Shown here one piece after another: positions 42,737-49,051 of a DNA stretch of 59,921 nt. The translations under genes were made by a program, and so were the position numbers. A model generated the notes under the pieces. It was not told the DNA's origin. It worked only from the letters and a program-made list of their open reading frames with translations, and ran no database searches. The first letter of the stretch is position 1; every line of letters starts with the position of its first letter. This DNA is from Hoeflea sp. (GTDB lineage Bacteria; Pseudomonadota; Alphaproteobacteria; Rhizobiales; Rhizobiaceae): positions 1 to 59,921 of the forward strand of contig NZ_NVXQ01000031.1 of assembly GCF_002733955.1 (NCBI RefSeq), in the 5' to 3' direction.

Positions 42737-42839
42737 GGCCAGATCGCCTTAACCATCACGCAAATCAACCTAATTCCGCTCATCTTGAGTCACAAAGGGC
42801 CTTGTCGTCGCCACTGTTCATCCTCATATTGTAGGCAGG

Positions 42840-42905
42840 CATGCTGGAGCCCCGCAGCGGCGCCTGGGTCTTTGAGCCCGACACCGTAATCCTTACCGGG
42901 GCTTA
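42840..42905 (+). ncRNA. ybhL-type structured leader
   Basis: The leader of the BI-1 gene folds into a closing stem AGCCCCG (42848-42854) / CGGGGCT (42897-42903) with an inner GGGTC...GAGCCC hairpin, ending eight bases before the ribosome site. Comparative work on alphaproteobacteria described a conserved ybhL RNA motif in exactly this place. Position and stem fit; the full consensus was not checked. Confidence 0.6.
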
Positions 42906-42918
42906 TAAAGAGGAAAAC

Positions 42919-43695
42919 ATGGCTGACCTTCGCAATTCGAATGTCCGCGCAGCAAATGGCGCCTATGCAGGCGCCGCTATCGATGAAGGCCTTCGCGCCT
43001 ACATGCTGCGCGTTTACAACCTGATGGCAATGGGACTGGGCATCACTGGTGTCGCAGCCTATGCAATTGCAATGCTTGCAACCACCAATGACCCGGCCTC
43101 CGCCGTGGCAACGATGGGCAATGGCAAGATGCTGACCGGTCTCGGTGCCGCGCTCTATGGCTCGCCGCTGAAGTGGGTGGTCATGCTGGCACCGCTCGGG
43201 ATGGTGTTCTTCCTGAGCGCCCGCATCGAGAAGATGAGCGTATCGGCTGCGCAGACCACCTTCTGGGTGTTTGCCGCGCTGATGGGCATCTCACTGTCGT
43301 CGATCTTCCTGGTCTACACCAGCGCATCGATCACGCAGACCTTCTTCATCACCGCAGCTTCGTTCGGCGCATTGTCGCTGTTCGGCTACACGACGAAGAA
43401 AGACCTGTCGGCGATGGGCTCGTTCCTGATGATGGGTCTGTTCGGCCTGATCATCGCGATGGTGGTCAACATCTTCCTGCAGTCGAGCGCGCTCCAGTTC
43501 GCGATCTCGGGCATCGGCGTGCTGATCTTTGCAGGTCTGACCGCCTATGACACGCAGCAGATCAAGTCGATGTATTATGAAGGCGACACCGACGCCACTG
43601 CCGGCCGCAAGGCCATCATGGGTGCGCTGCGTCTCTATCTCGACTTCATCAACCTGTTCATGTTCCTGCTGCAGTTCCTCGGCAATCGCGAGTAG
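42919..43695 (+). CDS. ybhL: BAX inhibitor-1 family protein YbhL
   Basis: A 258-residue membrane protein with seven hydrophobic segments and the BI-1/UPF0005 core: LRAYMLRVYNLMAMGLGITGVAAY, VYTSASITQTFFITAASFGALSLFGYTTKKDLSAMGSFL and the end GLTAYDTQQIKSMYYEGDTD with the conserved acidic residues thought to form a pH-sensitive calcium leak. The ATG at 42919 follows AGAGGAAA. An upstream ATG at 42841 lies inside the structured leader and is not used here. Confidence 0.95.
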   Translation: MADLRNSNVRAANGAYAGAAIDEGLRAYMLRVYNLMAMGLGITGVAAYAIAMLATTNDPASAVATMGNGKMLTGLGAALYGSPLKWVVMLAPLGMVFFLSARIEKMSVSAAQTTFWVFAALMGISLSSIFLVYTSASITQTFFITAASFGALSLFGYTTKKDLSAMGSFLMMGLFGLIIAMVVNIFLQSSALQFAISGIGVLIFAGLTAYDTQQIKSMYYEGDTDATAGRKAIMGALRLYLDFINLFMFLLQFLGNRE

Positions 43696-43802: not shown

Positions 43803-44354
43803 ATGATCCTTCGCGATGCAACACCCGCCGATCTCACAGACATTACCCGCATCTACAGCGACAGCGTTCTCCACGGTGTGGCGAGCTATGAGCTCGTGGC
43901 GCCTGACGCGGCCGAGATGGCGCGGCGGATGGCGGCGATTACCGACAATGGTTATCCCTATCTGATTGCCACAGACGAAGACGGCACGGTGCTTGGCTAC
44001 GCCTATGCGTCGGCCTTCCGGACACGGCCGGCCTATCGCTGGCTGGTCGAGGATTCAATCTACCTGGCGCCTCAGGCCCGCGGGCAGGGCGTCGGCCGGG
44101 CCTTGCTCGAAGCGCTGATTGCGCGCTGCGAGACCCTGGGCTTCCGGCAGATGGTGGCGGTGATCGGTGGCGCGCACCCGGCCTCGATCAAGCTGCATCA
44201 GAAGGCGGGCTTTGTCAGTTCCGGCATGATCAACGGCTCCGGTCACAAGCACGGAAACTGGCTCGATACGGTGTTCATGCAAAGGCCGCTGGGTGAAGGC
44301 AAGCAGACGGATCCTGACCCGGCGAGCTATCCGGGGACCCTTTTCAAGGAGTAG
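43803..44354 (+). CDS. GNAT acetyltransferase, phosphinothricin acetyltransferase-like
   Basis: A 183-residue GNAT enzyme resembling Pat/Bar and MddA: ILRDATPADLTDITRIYSDSVLHGVASYELVAPD, YAYASAFRTRPAYRWLVEDSIYLAPQARGQGVGRALLEALI (acetyl-CoA loop) and the closing GNWLDTVFMQRPL. Related enzymes acetylate methionine sulfone or phosphinothricin. It stands after the ybhL terminator and has its own start with no strong ribosome site. Confidence 0.9.
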   Translation: MILRDATPADLTDITRIYSDSVLHGVASYELVAPDAAEMARRMAAITDNGYPYLIATDEDGTVLGYAYASAFRTRPAYRWLVEDSIYLAPQARGQGVGRALLEALIARCETLGFRQMVAVIGGAHPASIKLHQKAGFVSSGMINGSGHKHGNWLDTVFMQRPLGEGKQTDPDPASYPGTLFKE

Positions 44355-44363
44355 CGGGGTGCT

Positions 44364-44762
44364 TCACCGCACCAGGCGTGGCGGCTTGTCGAAATATTTC
44401 AGCACGGTTTCGAGTTCGTGGCCGCGCTTGAGCACCAGCCCGGCGGCGGAAATGATGGCGAAAGCGCCTTGCTTGCGGGCACGCGAGGGATCTTTCTCGA
44501 TCCGGTAGAGCGGCACTTCGCTGGCACGGCGGAAGGCAGAGAACACCGCCTTGTCGCGCAGGTGATCGATCGCATAGTCGCGCCAGTGGCCCTCGGCCAC
44601 CATGCGGCTGTAGACCTGCAGGATGCGATCGAGTTCACGGCGTCTGAATGTGACCGGTTCTGGGGTGTTGCGGCGACGGTGCTCGCTCAGGTCAACGGTT
44701 GCGGTACCGCTCGGCTGTCCGCCCTTATCGCGGCCCGCCGCGTAATCCGTTCCATCAGCCAT
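44364..44762 (-). CDS. DUF2794 family protein
   Basis: A 132-residue protein of unknown function restricted mainly to alphaproteobacteria. The DUF2794 core runs VTFRRRELDRILQVYSRMVAEGHWRDYAIDHLRDKAVFSAFRRASEVPLYRIEKDP, then RKQGAFAIISAAGLVLKRGHELETVLKYFDK. The first 30 residues are hydrophilic and variable. It is convergent with the GNAT gene (nine bases between stops); upstream lies the 484-base region with the RNA candidate. Confidence 0.9.
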   Translation of the reverse strand: MADGTDYAAGRDKGGQPSGTATVDLSEHRRRNTPEPVTFRRRELDRILQVYSRMVAEGHWRDYAIDHLRDKAVFSAFRRASEVPLYRIEKDPSRARKQGAFAIISAAGLVLKRGHELETVLKYFDKPPRLVR

Positions 44763-44999
44763 TATCTGGACTGCAAATCAGTTTTCATCCGGCCAGTTTG
44801 CCTGACACAGGCATAATTTCAAGCACGAGGCGGGACTTTTCGCGCCGAAGCTCCGCGTCGGGGATGCCGCACTGCAGCATCACGAAAGGCTTCCAGCCGT
44901 CGTGTTTGTTTACTCCAGCCCGGGGAAAAATCGAAGTTCGACCCATTTGGGCCGCATTTCAGCCAAAACCTTGCCGGAATTGACCGCGATTGTTCAAGA

Positions 45000-45215
45000 G
45001 TTGCCTCAGACGGTTCGAACCGGGGACTTCGGATTTACAGCCCCCCAGCCCCCTCGGAGTTCCCGGGACGGATCATCTCGAAAAGCACGCAGGCCCGGAT
45101 CGGCAACGGTTTTAGGTCTGCGTGTCGAGAGCGTCTCAGATCGTCCCCGCGCACTAGGCGTGAGGCAACACCCCCAATACCCCAGATTTAGACCGGCTTC
45201 GGCCGGTCTTTTTTT
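45000..45215 (+). ncRNA. Candidate structured small RNA with intrinsic terminator
   Basis: Within the 484-base gap 44763-45246 there is no credible protein gene. Four helices nest in order: 45000-45008 with 45161-45169 (9 pairs), 45021-45027 with 45143-45149 (7), 45077-45081 with 45125-45129 (5) and 45086-45092 with 45118-45124 (7). This gives a long rod with an internal bubble of about 50 bases on one side. A terminator (45191-45208, then seven Ts) follows; no + strand gene precedes it for 640 bases, so it must end a separate transcript. The rod shape recalls 6S RNA, but I cannot confirm that. tRNA, tmRNA and RNase P signatures are absent. The rest of the gap, 44763-44999, shows nothing I can name. 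Confidence 0.6.
45191..45215 (+). terminator. Intrinsic terminator of the RNA candidate
   Basis: GACCGGC-TTCG-GCCGGTC followed by TTTTTTT. It is only competent on the + strand (no T run on the minus side), so it does not serve the DUF1223 gene. Confidence 0.93.
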
Positions 45216-45246
45216 GTCCGCATGCCAGCTGCTCAGTCTGGCAGGG

Positions 45247-45987
45247 TCAGATCTCGGTTGCGCCGAGAATGCGGCCCGGGTAGCCGTCCTTGCTGACTTC
45301 CTGCAGCAGTATGGCGCATCGGCGGCCGGGATGGGCGGAGATGACCGAGCCAGGCAGTTTCAGGTTGACCTTGTGGCCGTTCCACATGCCGACGGTTTCC
45401 ATGTCGCGGACGCTGTGGCGATAGGTGATGGTGCGTCCGGTGTTCTCACCGCGATCGATCTCGACGGTGGTGGCATCGTCGAAATAGACCGCTATGATAT
45501 CGGCCTTTCCGACGCCGTCGCCTATGGAAATGCGCAGCTCGTCAGCGTTCATGAATGCCGACACATCGACGGTCAGACCGGCGCCCTCGGTGGAGAATTT
45601 CTCCACCATGTTGCTGATTGCGGCTCCGTCCGCGCCATTGACGTGGCTCTGGCCGTTGATCACCGCCTGCGGGGTGTAGACGCCGTTGCGGTTGAAGGTC
45701 TTGGCATAGCCATATTGCCGCTGGGTGTTGGCCTTGCTCGACAGCGTGTCGGCCCAGCCGAGATAGTTCCAGTAGTCGACATGGTAACTCAGCGCCAGCA
45801 CGTCGTCCTGTTCGGCCAACCTTGCCAGCTCCTCGTCTGCCGGCGGGCAGGACGAGCAGCCCTGGCTGGTGAACAGCTCGACCACGCCCTTGAGCTCTCC
45901 AGCCGCTGCCGCGCCGGGGGCTGCCAGCACCGATGTGGCTGTCAGGACCGGAAGGGCAAGAGCAAGGAGAAGGGTACGTGCAGTCAT
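45247..45987 (-). CDS. DUF1223 family thioredoxin-like exported protein
   Basis: A 246-residue secreted protein. Residues 1-23 are a signal peptide. The DUF1223 domain opens VVELFTSQGCSSCPPADEELARLA with a C-x-x-C pair (Cys44, Cys47) in a thioredoxin-like fold, then LSYHVDYWNYLGWADTLSS, RQYGYAKTFNRNGVYTPQAVING and HKVNLKLPG. The role is unknown, probably redox in the periplasm. The ATG at 45987 heads the signal peptide; the longer frame to 46068 does not. Confidence 0.9.
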   Translation of the reverse strand: MTARTLLLALALPVLTATSVLAAPGAAAAGELKGVVELFTSQGCSSCPPADEELARLAEQDDVLALSYHVDYWNYLGWADTLSSKANTQRQYGYAKTFNRNGVYTPQAVINGQSHVNGADGAAISNMVEKFSTEGAGLTVDVSAFMNADELRISIGDGVGKADIIAVYFDDATTVEIDRGENTGRTITYRHSVRDMETVGMWNGHKVNLKLPGSVISAHPGRRCAILLQEVSKDGYPGRILGATEI

Positions 45988-46121
45988 GAAGGGGTATCCG
46001 TTTCGTTCGGGTGGGCCTGAGAAACTATACAGATTTGTACCGTGGAGTCCCGGACACGTCCAAATCACGTTGCGGTGAGAGGTTCCAGGCTCAATTCACG
46101 CAAGGGTGCATGTACCCAAAC

Positions 46122-46189: not shown

Positions 46190-48880
<2,691 letters not shown>

Positions 48881-49051
48881 AGGCAACCCGCTTTCATGAG
48901 TTCGGCCGAACATTGAGGGCGAACACCTCGCACGCGGATCGCGTGGACAAGGATGCGGGTACGGTCATTTCCGCTGTCCGCCCGTGACGCTTGGGGCATC
49001 ATGTTCGGCGCTAGATTGAATTCACGCCGACCGCTGGCGTGGTTGCGGGCG

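Follow-up and report, generated by a model that had tools for sequence, protein, structure and literature searches.

The small RNA (sRNA) GspR, also called SmelC775, is encoded in Sinorhizobium meliloti between SMc03844 and SMc03845 (PMC5928217), the latter being srlA, whose product is described as having a thioredoxin fold and a CXXC motif (PMC9561847). According to the available sections of the GspR report (PMC5928217), the RNA forms three stem-loops with a folding energy of -66.30 kcal/mol, Sinorhizobium homologues have identical stem-loops 1 and 3, and nucleotides (nt) 13 to 22 pair with positions -68 to -59 of ctrA, an interaction of stem-loop 1 that is supported by compensatory mutations. 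The same sections report that GspR represses ctrA, that it represses cspA5 near the start codon, that mutations in stem-loop 3 abolish both the repression of cspA5 and the growth arrest of S. meliloti, and that cspA5 repression is lost by changes in either partner; they contain no compensatory rescue for cspA5 and no known promoter signature at the GspR 5′ end. GspR is described as accumulating in stationary phase. As far as the available parts of these sources go, the SmelC775 relatives given in a survey of 2011 come from Sinorhizobium species (PMC3927594), the GspR paper of 2018 identified the RNA only in that genus and raises the idea of a genus-specific adaptation (PMC5928217), and a review of 2020 calls it likely restricted to that genus (PMC7143759). 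Two further named RNAs, BjrC174 of Bradyrhizobium (Rfam RF02355) and Atu_C10 of Agrobacterium (RF02497), belong to the same comparison; BjrC174 is described as abundant and as having promoter activity, but without a mapped promoter motif in the part of the source available (PMC4842269). All three RNAs are known by name; neither their unity nor an order-wide spread was found in the literature searched, which covered a minority of subscription papers and not the original BjrC174 paper; no passage linking the names was seen there.

In this study, we analyzed a 59,921-nt stretch of DNA from Hoeflea sp. (contig NZ_NVXQ01000031.1), hereafter the window, in which a first-pass annotation had described a rod-shaped RNA, reminiscent of 6S RNA and possibly of a new family. 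We find an sRNA gene at this place and consider it very likely that it encodes a trans-acting RNA, the Hoeflea member of an order-wide family that includes BjrC174, GspR/SmelC775, and Atu_C10, with probable base pairing to mRNAs.

Results

An sRNA gene between DUF2794 and DUF1223

Inspection of open reading frames (ORFs) and Pfam matches found the gap 44763-45246 free of neighboring genes, as the first-pass annotation had it, with the DUF2794 gene ending at 44762 and the DUF1223 gene beginning at 45247 (Table 1). The last plus-strand gene before the sRNA, a GNAT gene, ends at 44354, some 645 nt upstream, in agreement with the earlier statement that no plus-strand gene lies within 640 bases. 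Beyond the DUF1223 gene, the minus-strand ORF 46190-48913 is presumably acnA. Judging from locus order and the published thioredoxin-fold/CXXC description, the DUF1223 gene is likely the counterpart of S. meliloti srlA/SMc03845. Elsewhere in the window, a ybhL leader (RF00520, 75.3 bits, gathering score 50) occupies 42836-42906 on the plus strand, at the start of a Bax1-I (ybhL-type) ORF at 42841-43695; because the listed start of this ORF falls within the leader, its true start is probably further downstream.

The stretch 45000-45215 on the plus strand is a real sRNA gene. The folding energy of its region, -101.3 kcal/mol (z -5.62), is lower than that of 200 of 200 shuffles, and its 5′ end, near-invariant in relatives, reads GTTGCCTCA. 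The plus-strand terminator with a TTCG loop and seven Ts, noticed in the first pass, is present with an eight-pair stem that is paired in 95.6% of the cells among 17 genus members. The idea of a separate plus-strand RNA with its own terminator was also right, as the RNA is kept beside DUF2794 and DUF1223 and shows compensatory changes. Scanning the window with Rfam covariance models, as had been suggested, gave nothing at gathering score over the sRNA. Near-matches to SorX, RyhB, rsmX, and other Rfam families were all under cut-off, lay mostly over the terminator, and were rejected, as was the tRNA-like look of the reverse strand, for ARAGORN, run on the window and on 30 loci, detected no tRNA.

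Table 1. Coordinates of the sRNA gene, its parts, and its neighbors in the window
Feature	Positions	Strand	Basis or remark
DUF2794 gene	44364-44762	-	divergent neighbor; PF10984, E 3.3e-39
Conserved promoter block	44942-44999	+	ungapped logo of 132 relatives aligned at GTTGCCTC
sRNA gene, ~216 nt, predicted start G45000	45000-45215	+	logo, start from GspR numbering, terminator, R1 match
5′-terminal GUUGCCUCA, likely seed	45000-45008	+	near-invariant in alignment A2; can pair with 45161-45169
C-loop hairpin, 19 pairs	45012-45074	+	covariation; deduced counterpart of GspR stem-loop 3
C-rich loop AGCCCCCCAGCCCCC, likely mRNA-pairing site	45039-45053	+	core invariant or nearly so in A2
CGUCCCCGCG, genus-conserved	45142-45151	+	A3 alignment; able to compete with hairpin 3′ arm
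UGAGGCAAC, complement of 5′ seed	45161-45169	+	closing helix
Intrinsic terminator	45190-45215	+	8-pair stem, TTCG loop, 7 T
DUF1223 gene (CXXC)	45247-46068	-	convergent neighbor; PF06764, E 1.2e-63

A covarying hairpin with a C-rich loop forms the conserved core

The conserved core of the gene is the 5′ hairpin with its C-rich loop, rather than the four-helix rod. A DNA search for relatives in 61 genomes, the Hoeflea genome of the window included, matched 30. Of the 15 other genus members matched, 11 had a best match limited to roughly the first 71 to 86 bases of the RNA, and in the remaining families of the order, the hairpin and its C-rich stretch accounted for eight of nine matches. Two matches of this search, L031 and L032, proved unrelated. 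A pattern scan of genome contigs (TTGCCTCA, 20 to 50 bases, AGCCCCCCAGCCCC) returned at least 119 matching stretches and, among the 80 matches listed, nearly all were from Hyphomicrobiales or unplaced Alphaproteobacteria/Proteobacteria, several of them Hoeflea. One listed match is labeled Pirellulaceae, perhaps through a binning error. The 5′ motif GTTGCCT/GTTACCT is present in 134 of 138 C-loop matches; the four lacking it, one of which (L129) resembles chance, were excluded, and all 134 remaining sequences fold into a hairpin of 17 to 29 pairs around the loop (constrained to be unpaired).

Alignment A2 holds 42 of these 134 sequences (41 distinct), namely, 39 of 43 dereplicated ones plus L004, L006, and L009 from the genus. 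Its nine-pair lower stem is paired in 94.5% of 362 cells, a count favored by the omission of four sequences with irregular or cut stems (L027, L072, L076, and L100). Double-sided changes occur at eight of the nine pairs and in 56 cells (shuffled means, 3.9 and 16.5), covariation is 0.467 compared to 0.269 in shuffled alignments, and none of 500 shuffles reaches the observed values. Sliding the lower stem by one column lowers pairing to 58.7% or 49.4%, and RNAalifold without a supplied structure returned nearly the same stem, with nine pairs and double changes in all nine. At genus level (17 rows), the structure shows little covariation, with three pairs carrying double changes and 97.3% of cells paired compared to 96.5% in shuffles. 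The near-invariance of the C-rich loop in A2 is partly due to most rows having come from a pattern containing the loop; in the window, two C-G pairs within the loop have a pairing probability of ∼0.7.

Variants of this hairpin were seen at several loci. In L229 to L244, from family f1 (e.g., L233:1501-1580), the loop reads AACCCCAAGCCCCCCGCCCACGG or near it and the 5′ end GTTGCCTGAGACGG; the locus is unchanged, and many genera of the family have this loop variant. In L044, L068, L095, and L142, a T run stands directly 3′ of the hairpin, which could there double as a terminator and yield a short RNA of ∼90 to 110 nt.

The rod and the closing helix

The four nested perfect helices of the first-pass annotation do exist (45000-45008/45161-45169, 45021-45027/45143-45149, 45076-45081/45125-45130, and 45086-45092/45118-45124), only that the third has six pairs, so the series is 9/7/6/7 rather than 9/7/5/7. 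As a unit, the rod does not hold: helices 1, 3, and 4 have pairing probabilities of 0.92, 0.88, and 1.0 in the window, but that of helix 2 is 0.0, and forcing it costs ∼10 kcal/mol (-89.8 vs -99.9). Helix 2 competes with the C-loop hairpin, its 5′ arm being an arm of the hairpin too. Among the 17 genus members, helices 1 and 2 are paired in 89.5% and 95.0% of cells, respectively. For helices 3 and 4, the values are 58.7% and 62.0%, with 5 to 14 rows showing gaps and several short members lacking both helices. On the energetics of helix 2 and the poor pairing of helices 3 and 4, we reject the rod as the conserved core. The covariation of the rod helices, which had been proposed as a check, is there: double changes affect 11 pairs, whereas shuffles give 6.5 and reach 11 in 3 of 500 cases. 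The conserved core is nonetheless the hairpin, paired in 99.4% of cells in the same 17 rows. This excess of double changes, together with the predicted helices 3 and 4, suggests that these two helices may be a second hairpin of the longer members.

The segment 45142-45151 reads CGUUCCCGCG in most relatives, and the conserved GUUCCCGCG, which would make rod helix 2, could serve as an alternative partner of the hairpin arm. The eight-pair closing helix is paired in 94.1% of cells (17 genus rows) and would hide the 5′ seed in the window. In L024, a relative from outside the family, the 5′ end reads GTTACCTCAG and the 3′ strand CTGAGGTAA; since both strands of the closing helix are altered (TTGCC to TTACC and GGCAA to GGTAA), this suggests that the seed-masking helix predates the genus.

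A phased promoter block in register with GspR

The promoter logo of 132 sequences, not dereplicated, contains (i) a CACAAT-like box at -58 to -53; (ii) GCC triplets at 44951, 44962, and 44973 (-49, -38, and -27), in 11-base steps; and (iii) a -10 hexamer NANNNT at 44988-44993, with A at -11 in 90% and T at -7 in 57% of the sequences. A -35 consensus, looked for in the same logo, was not found. An EcfG/GsrN-type promoter is unsupported, as the logo lacks a GGAAC-type -35, and CenR was rejected as the activator because its sites, as given in the available parts of the sources (TGA-N8-TGA in PMC9275681 and AGTCAC-N6-GTGACT in PMC9561847), are unlike the GCC boxes.

The start of GspR can be placed by means of the published ctrA pairing. 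The exact S. meliloti srlA promoter repeat occurs in 1 of 394 family genomes (G925), which on this ground we take to be a Sinorhizobium. Positions -68 to -59 of ctrA in this genome read GGCAACGACT, their complement AGTCGTTGCC is present in its RNA, and the published numbering puts the GspR start at L247:373, in the Sinorhizobium-type locus. At this position, the triplets (the middle one as GTC), A -11, and T -7 all stand at the logo distances, and the -58 box does not match. The agreement between this start and the logo indicates that the RNA of the window should begin at 45000.

Spread of the family across genomes

The covariance model R1 gave one convincing match in the Hoeflea genome (45000-45075, 61.1 bits; next match, 19.2). 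Within the genus, all 18 genomes had a match at an E value of ≤1, of which 17 are credible, the 22-bit match in G007 lacking the locus. Larger samples matched in 68 of 121 genomes of family f1 at an E value of ≤0.1 (61 of 106 genera), in 171 of 297 genomes of the order at ≤0.01 (79 of 118 genera), and in 7 of 289 genomes of the class, including that of the window and with four in one family; filters were stricter whenever more than 40 genomes were searched, and a miss there does not prove absence.

GspR, BjrC174, and Atu_C10 as probable orthologues of the Hoeflea RNA

The first-pass suggestion of a new RNA family is overturned by these comparisons, the sRNA being a positional and structural orthologue of the named BjrC174, Atu_C10, and GspR. 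For GspR, gene order is conserved at the G925 locus, which contains a C-loop hairpin and scores 33.8 bits with R1 and 29.7 bits with RF02355, the latter below cut-off; RF02497 is also under cut-off at this Sinorhizobium-type locus. The 144 nt from the deduced start fold into three stem-loops in both genomes of genus g377 (-67.9 and -67.6 kcal/mol), with stem-loop 1 leaving nt 13 to 22 almost wholly unpaired and with the C-loop hairpin as the third stem-loop, which, read by eye, is consistent with the published identity. By this folding, stem-loop 3 of GspR would be the C-loop hairpin. The Hoeflea RNA and GspR thus share the locus between SMc03844 and SMc03845 counterparts, convergent to the latter, the promoter register, GUUGCC in the ctrA-pairing stretch, and, by the fold model, the C-loop hairpin. 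They differ in that GspR has 143 to 144 nt, a shorter C loop, no GGCAAC decoy, and GUUGCC in the loop of an extra 5′ stem-loop (nt 13 to 22) instead of at the 5′ terminus. From the GspR ctrA-pairing stretch AGUCGUUGCC, the window keeps only GUUGCC(U), at the 5′ end; the GUUGCC of the seed is the 3′ part of that stretch.

RF02355 itself reaches 13.3 bits on the window, a partial match under the gathering score of 45. In genus g58, which we read as Bradyrhizobium, an over-cut-off RF02355 match covers the R1 match in 10 of 10 genomes, and DUF2794 adjoins 12 of 12 over-cut-off BjrC174 loci and DUF1223 11 of 12. R1, although built without BjrC174 loci, scores 36.9 to 43.4 bits on six of these twelve (L190, L192, L193, L196, L200, and L201). 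BjrC174 shares with the Hoeflea RNA the locus between DUF2794 and DUF1223-acnA, the orientation, the terminator, a hairpin with a CAGCCCCCAGCCCC loop, and phased GCC boxes (read by eye); its 5′ end, in contrast, reads GTGCGTTG, and its 3′ parts are unlike. Relative to the likely start, the RF02355 model apparently begins ∼60 to 85 nt further upstream, which would bring promoter sequence into it.

Atu_C10 is the weakest of the three orthology links. RF02497 had no match in the window at an E value of ≤10 and none in the Hoeflea genome at ≤1e-4; in 30 genomes, it matched at ≤1 in 12, none over cut-off, and in 8 of these 12 genomes a match lay on the sRNA locus. A wider search found it over cut-off (gathering score, 60 bits) in 9 of 394 genomes, all of one genus, where all nine loci are flanked by DUF2794 and DUF1223 and carry the C-loop hairpin and promoter block. 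R1 scores 13.7 to 16.4 bits on these nine loci and 24 to 33 bits on six intermediates. Atu_C10 resembles the Hoeflea RNA in its locus, C-loop hairpin (TACCCCCAGCCCCC), and promoter block and differs in its 5′ end without GTTGCC and in its weak R1 scores, so that the case for this link is made by the locus, the promoter block, the C-loop, and the intermediates.

Discussion

We propose that the Hoeflea RNA would be transcribed from G45000, from the conserved promoter with only a -10 element and phased GCC boxes, to the T run at 45209-45215, a putative activator probably standing in for the -35 element. Its C-rich loop and 5′-terminal GUUGCC would then pair with mRNA leaders and lower translation or stability. 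Within the genus Hoeflea, the 5′ seed could be masked by the RNA's own UGAGGCAAC, a possible self-inhibition. Since GspR stem-loop 3 is tied to cspA5 repression and growth arrest, the RNA of the window most likely regulates mRNAs by base pairing.

A loop that binds, and thereby titrates, a protein instead of mRNAs is the best of the other explanations and is nonetheless unlikely. It is compatible with a loop that stays near-invariant while the stem covaries, which would be expected of a protein site or a seed alike, and no order-wide mRNA target is known. Against it, GspR stem-loop 3, which folds as the C-loop hairpin, is reported to repress cspA5 (PMC5928217, available sections), and GsrN of Caulobacter pairs with G-rich leaders through a 5′ C-rich loop with six tandem C residues (PMC5869019, part of the source available). 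GsrN shares the 5′ C-rich loop with the Hoeflea RNA but differs in having a Sigma-T (EcfG) promoter and, in most relatives, a position by ecfG-nepR-phyR (same source and extent), neither of which is seen in the Hoeflea window; we regard it as an analogue, without claiming homology.

Rather less likely still is that the conserved sequence works in cis, either on the convergent DUF1223 mRNA, as an antisense RNA or shared terminator, or on DUF2794 only, as an upstream block. The sRNA and DUF1223 genes are convergent, and in S. meliloti the antisense transcript SmelC776 overlaps GspR by 74 nt, yet plasmid-borne GspR acts in trans (both from the available sections of PMC5928217). The best-conserved parts of the Hoeflea gene are the 5′ hairpin and the 5′ end, away from DUF1223, and the -35/-10 spacing of a minus-strand reading does not fit (read by eye). 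Among 111 pattern loci, moreover, DUF1223 lies convergent and downstream in 45, compared to DUF2794, which lies divergent and upstream in 100 (103 loci with at least 900 bases upstream).

There is next to no case for a 6S RNA, that is, a rod binding RNA polymerase, as length and the rod shape of the first-pass annotation had hinted, because the same genome has its own 6S gene on contig C12 (RF00013, 79.8 bits, over cut-off), RF00013 is absent from the window matches at an E value of ≤10, and the rod is not the conserved core. Just as negligible is a short coding gene: a 372-codon GTG ORF (44902-46020, plus strand) does span the sRNA, but it has no Pfam match and is mostly an antisense reading of DUF1223, 45000-45216 contains no ATG, and the 17 aligned genus RNAs (148 to 253 nt) have frame-breaking gaps.

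Returning to base pairing with mRNAs, ctrA is a plausible Hoeflea target on sequence grounds. In 16 of 18 family f1 genomes, including 11 of 11 Hoeflea, the ctrA leader carries AGGCAAC, the complement of GUUGCCU, at -66 to -71, and the RNA of the window has a 7-nt match to the ctrA leader at -69. Conservation of the block around AGGCAAC may have another cause; 14 of the 16 leaders bearing this heptamer contain a different segment with stronger pairing to the seed (-12.5 vs -11.8 in the Hoeflea genome of the window). Outside family f1, AGGCAAC is found in none of seven ctrA leaders, so ctrA cannot explain the order-wide conservation, and the C-loop is the likelier common module.

A fuller account, to which we would give not quite an even chance, is that three RNAs treated as separate or genus specific are one ancient core sRNA of the Hyphomicrobiales, whose promoter (a -10 element and three GCC boxes at 11-base intervals) would answer to an unrecognized activator. 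The order-wide part would be the C-loop, responsible in Sinorhizobium for cspA5 repression and the growth stop, and an ancestral growth-brake regulon would be read through it. The GUUGCC seed could have been recruited to ctrA control later, within the Rhizobiaceae, with the Hoeflea decoy UGAGGCAAC perhaps checking the seed until a target or chaperone opens it.

If GspR, BjrC174, and Atu_C10 are one family, RF02355 and RF02497 could be merged or share one clan, the RNA occurs in a majority of the genomes sampled from the order (171/297), and its ancestral role can be tested in several laboratory species.
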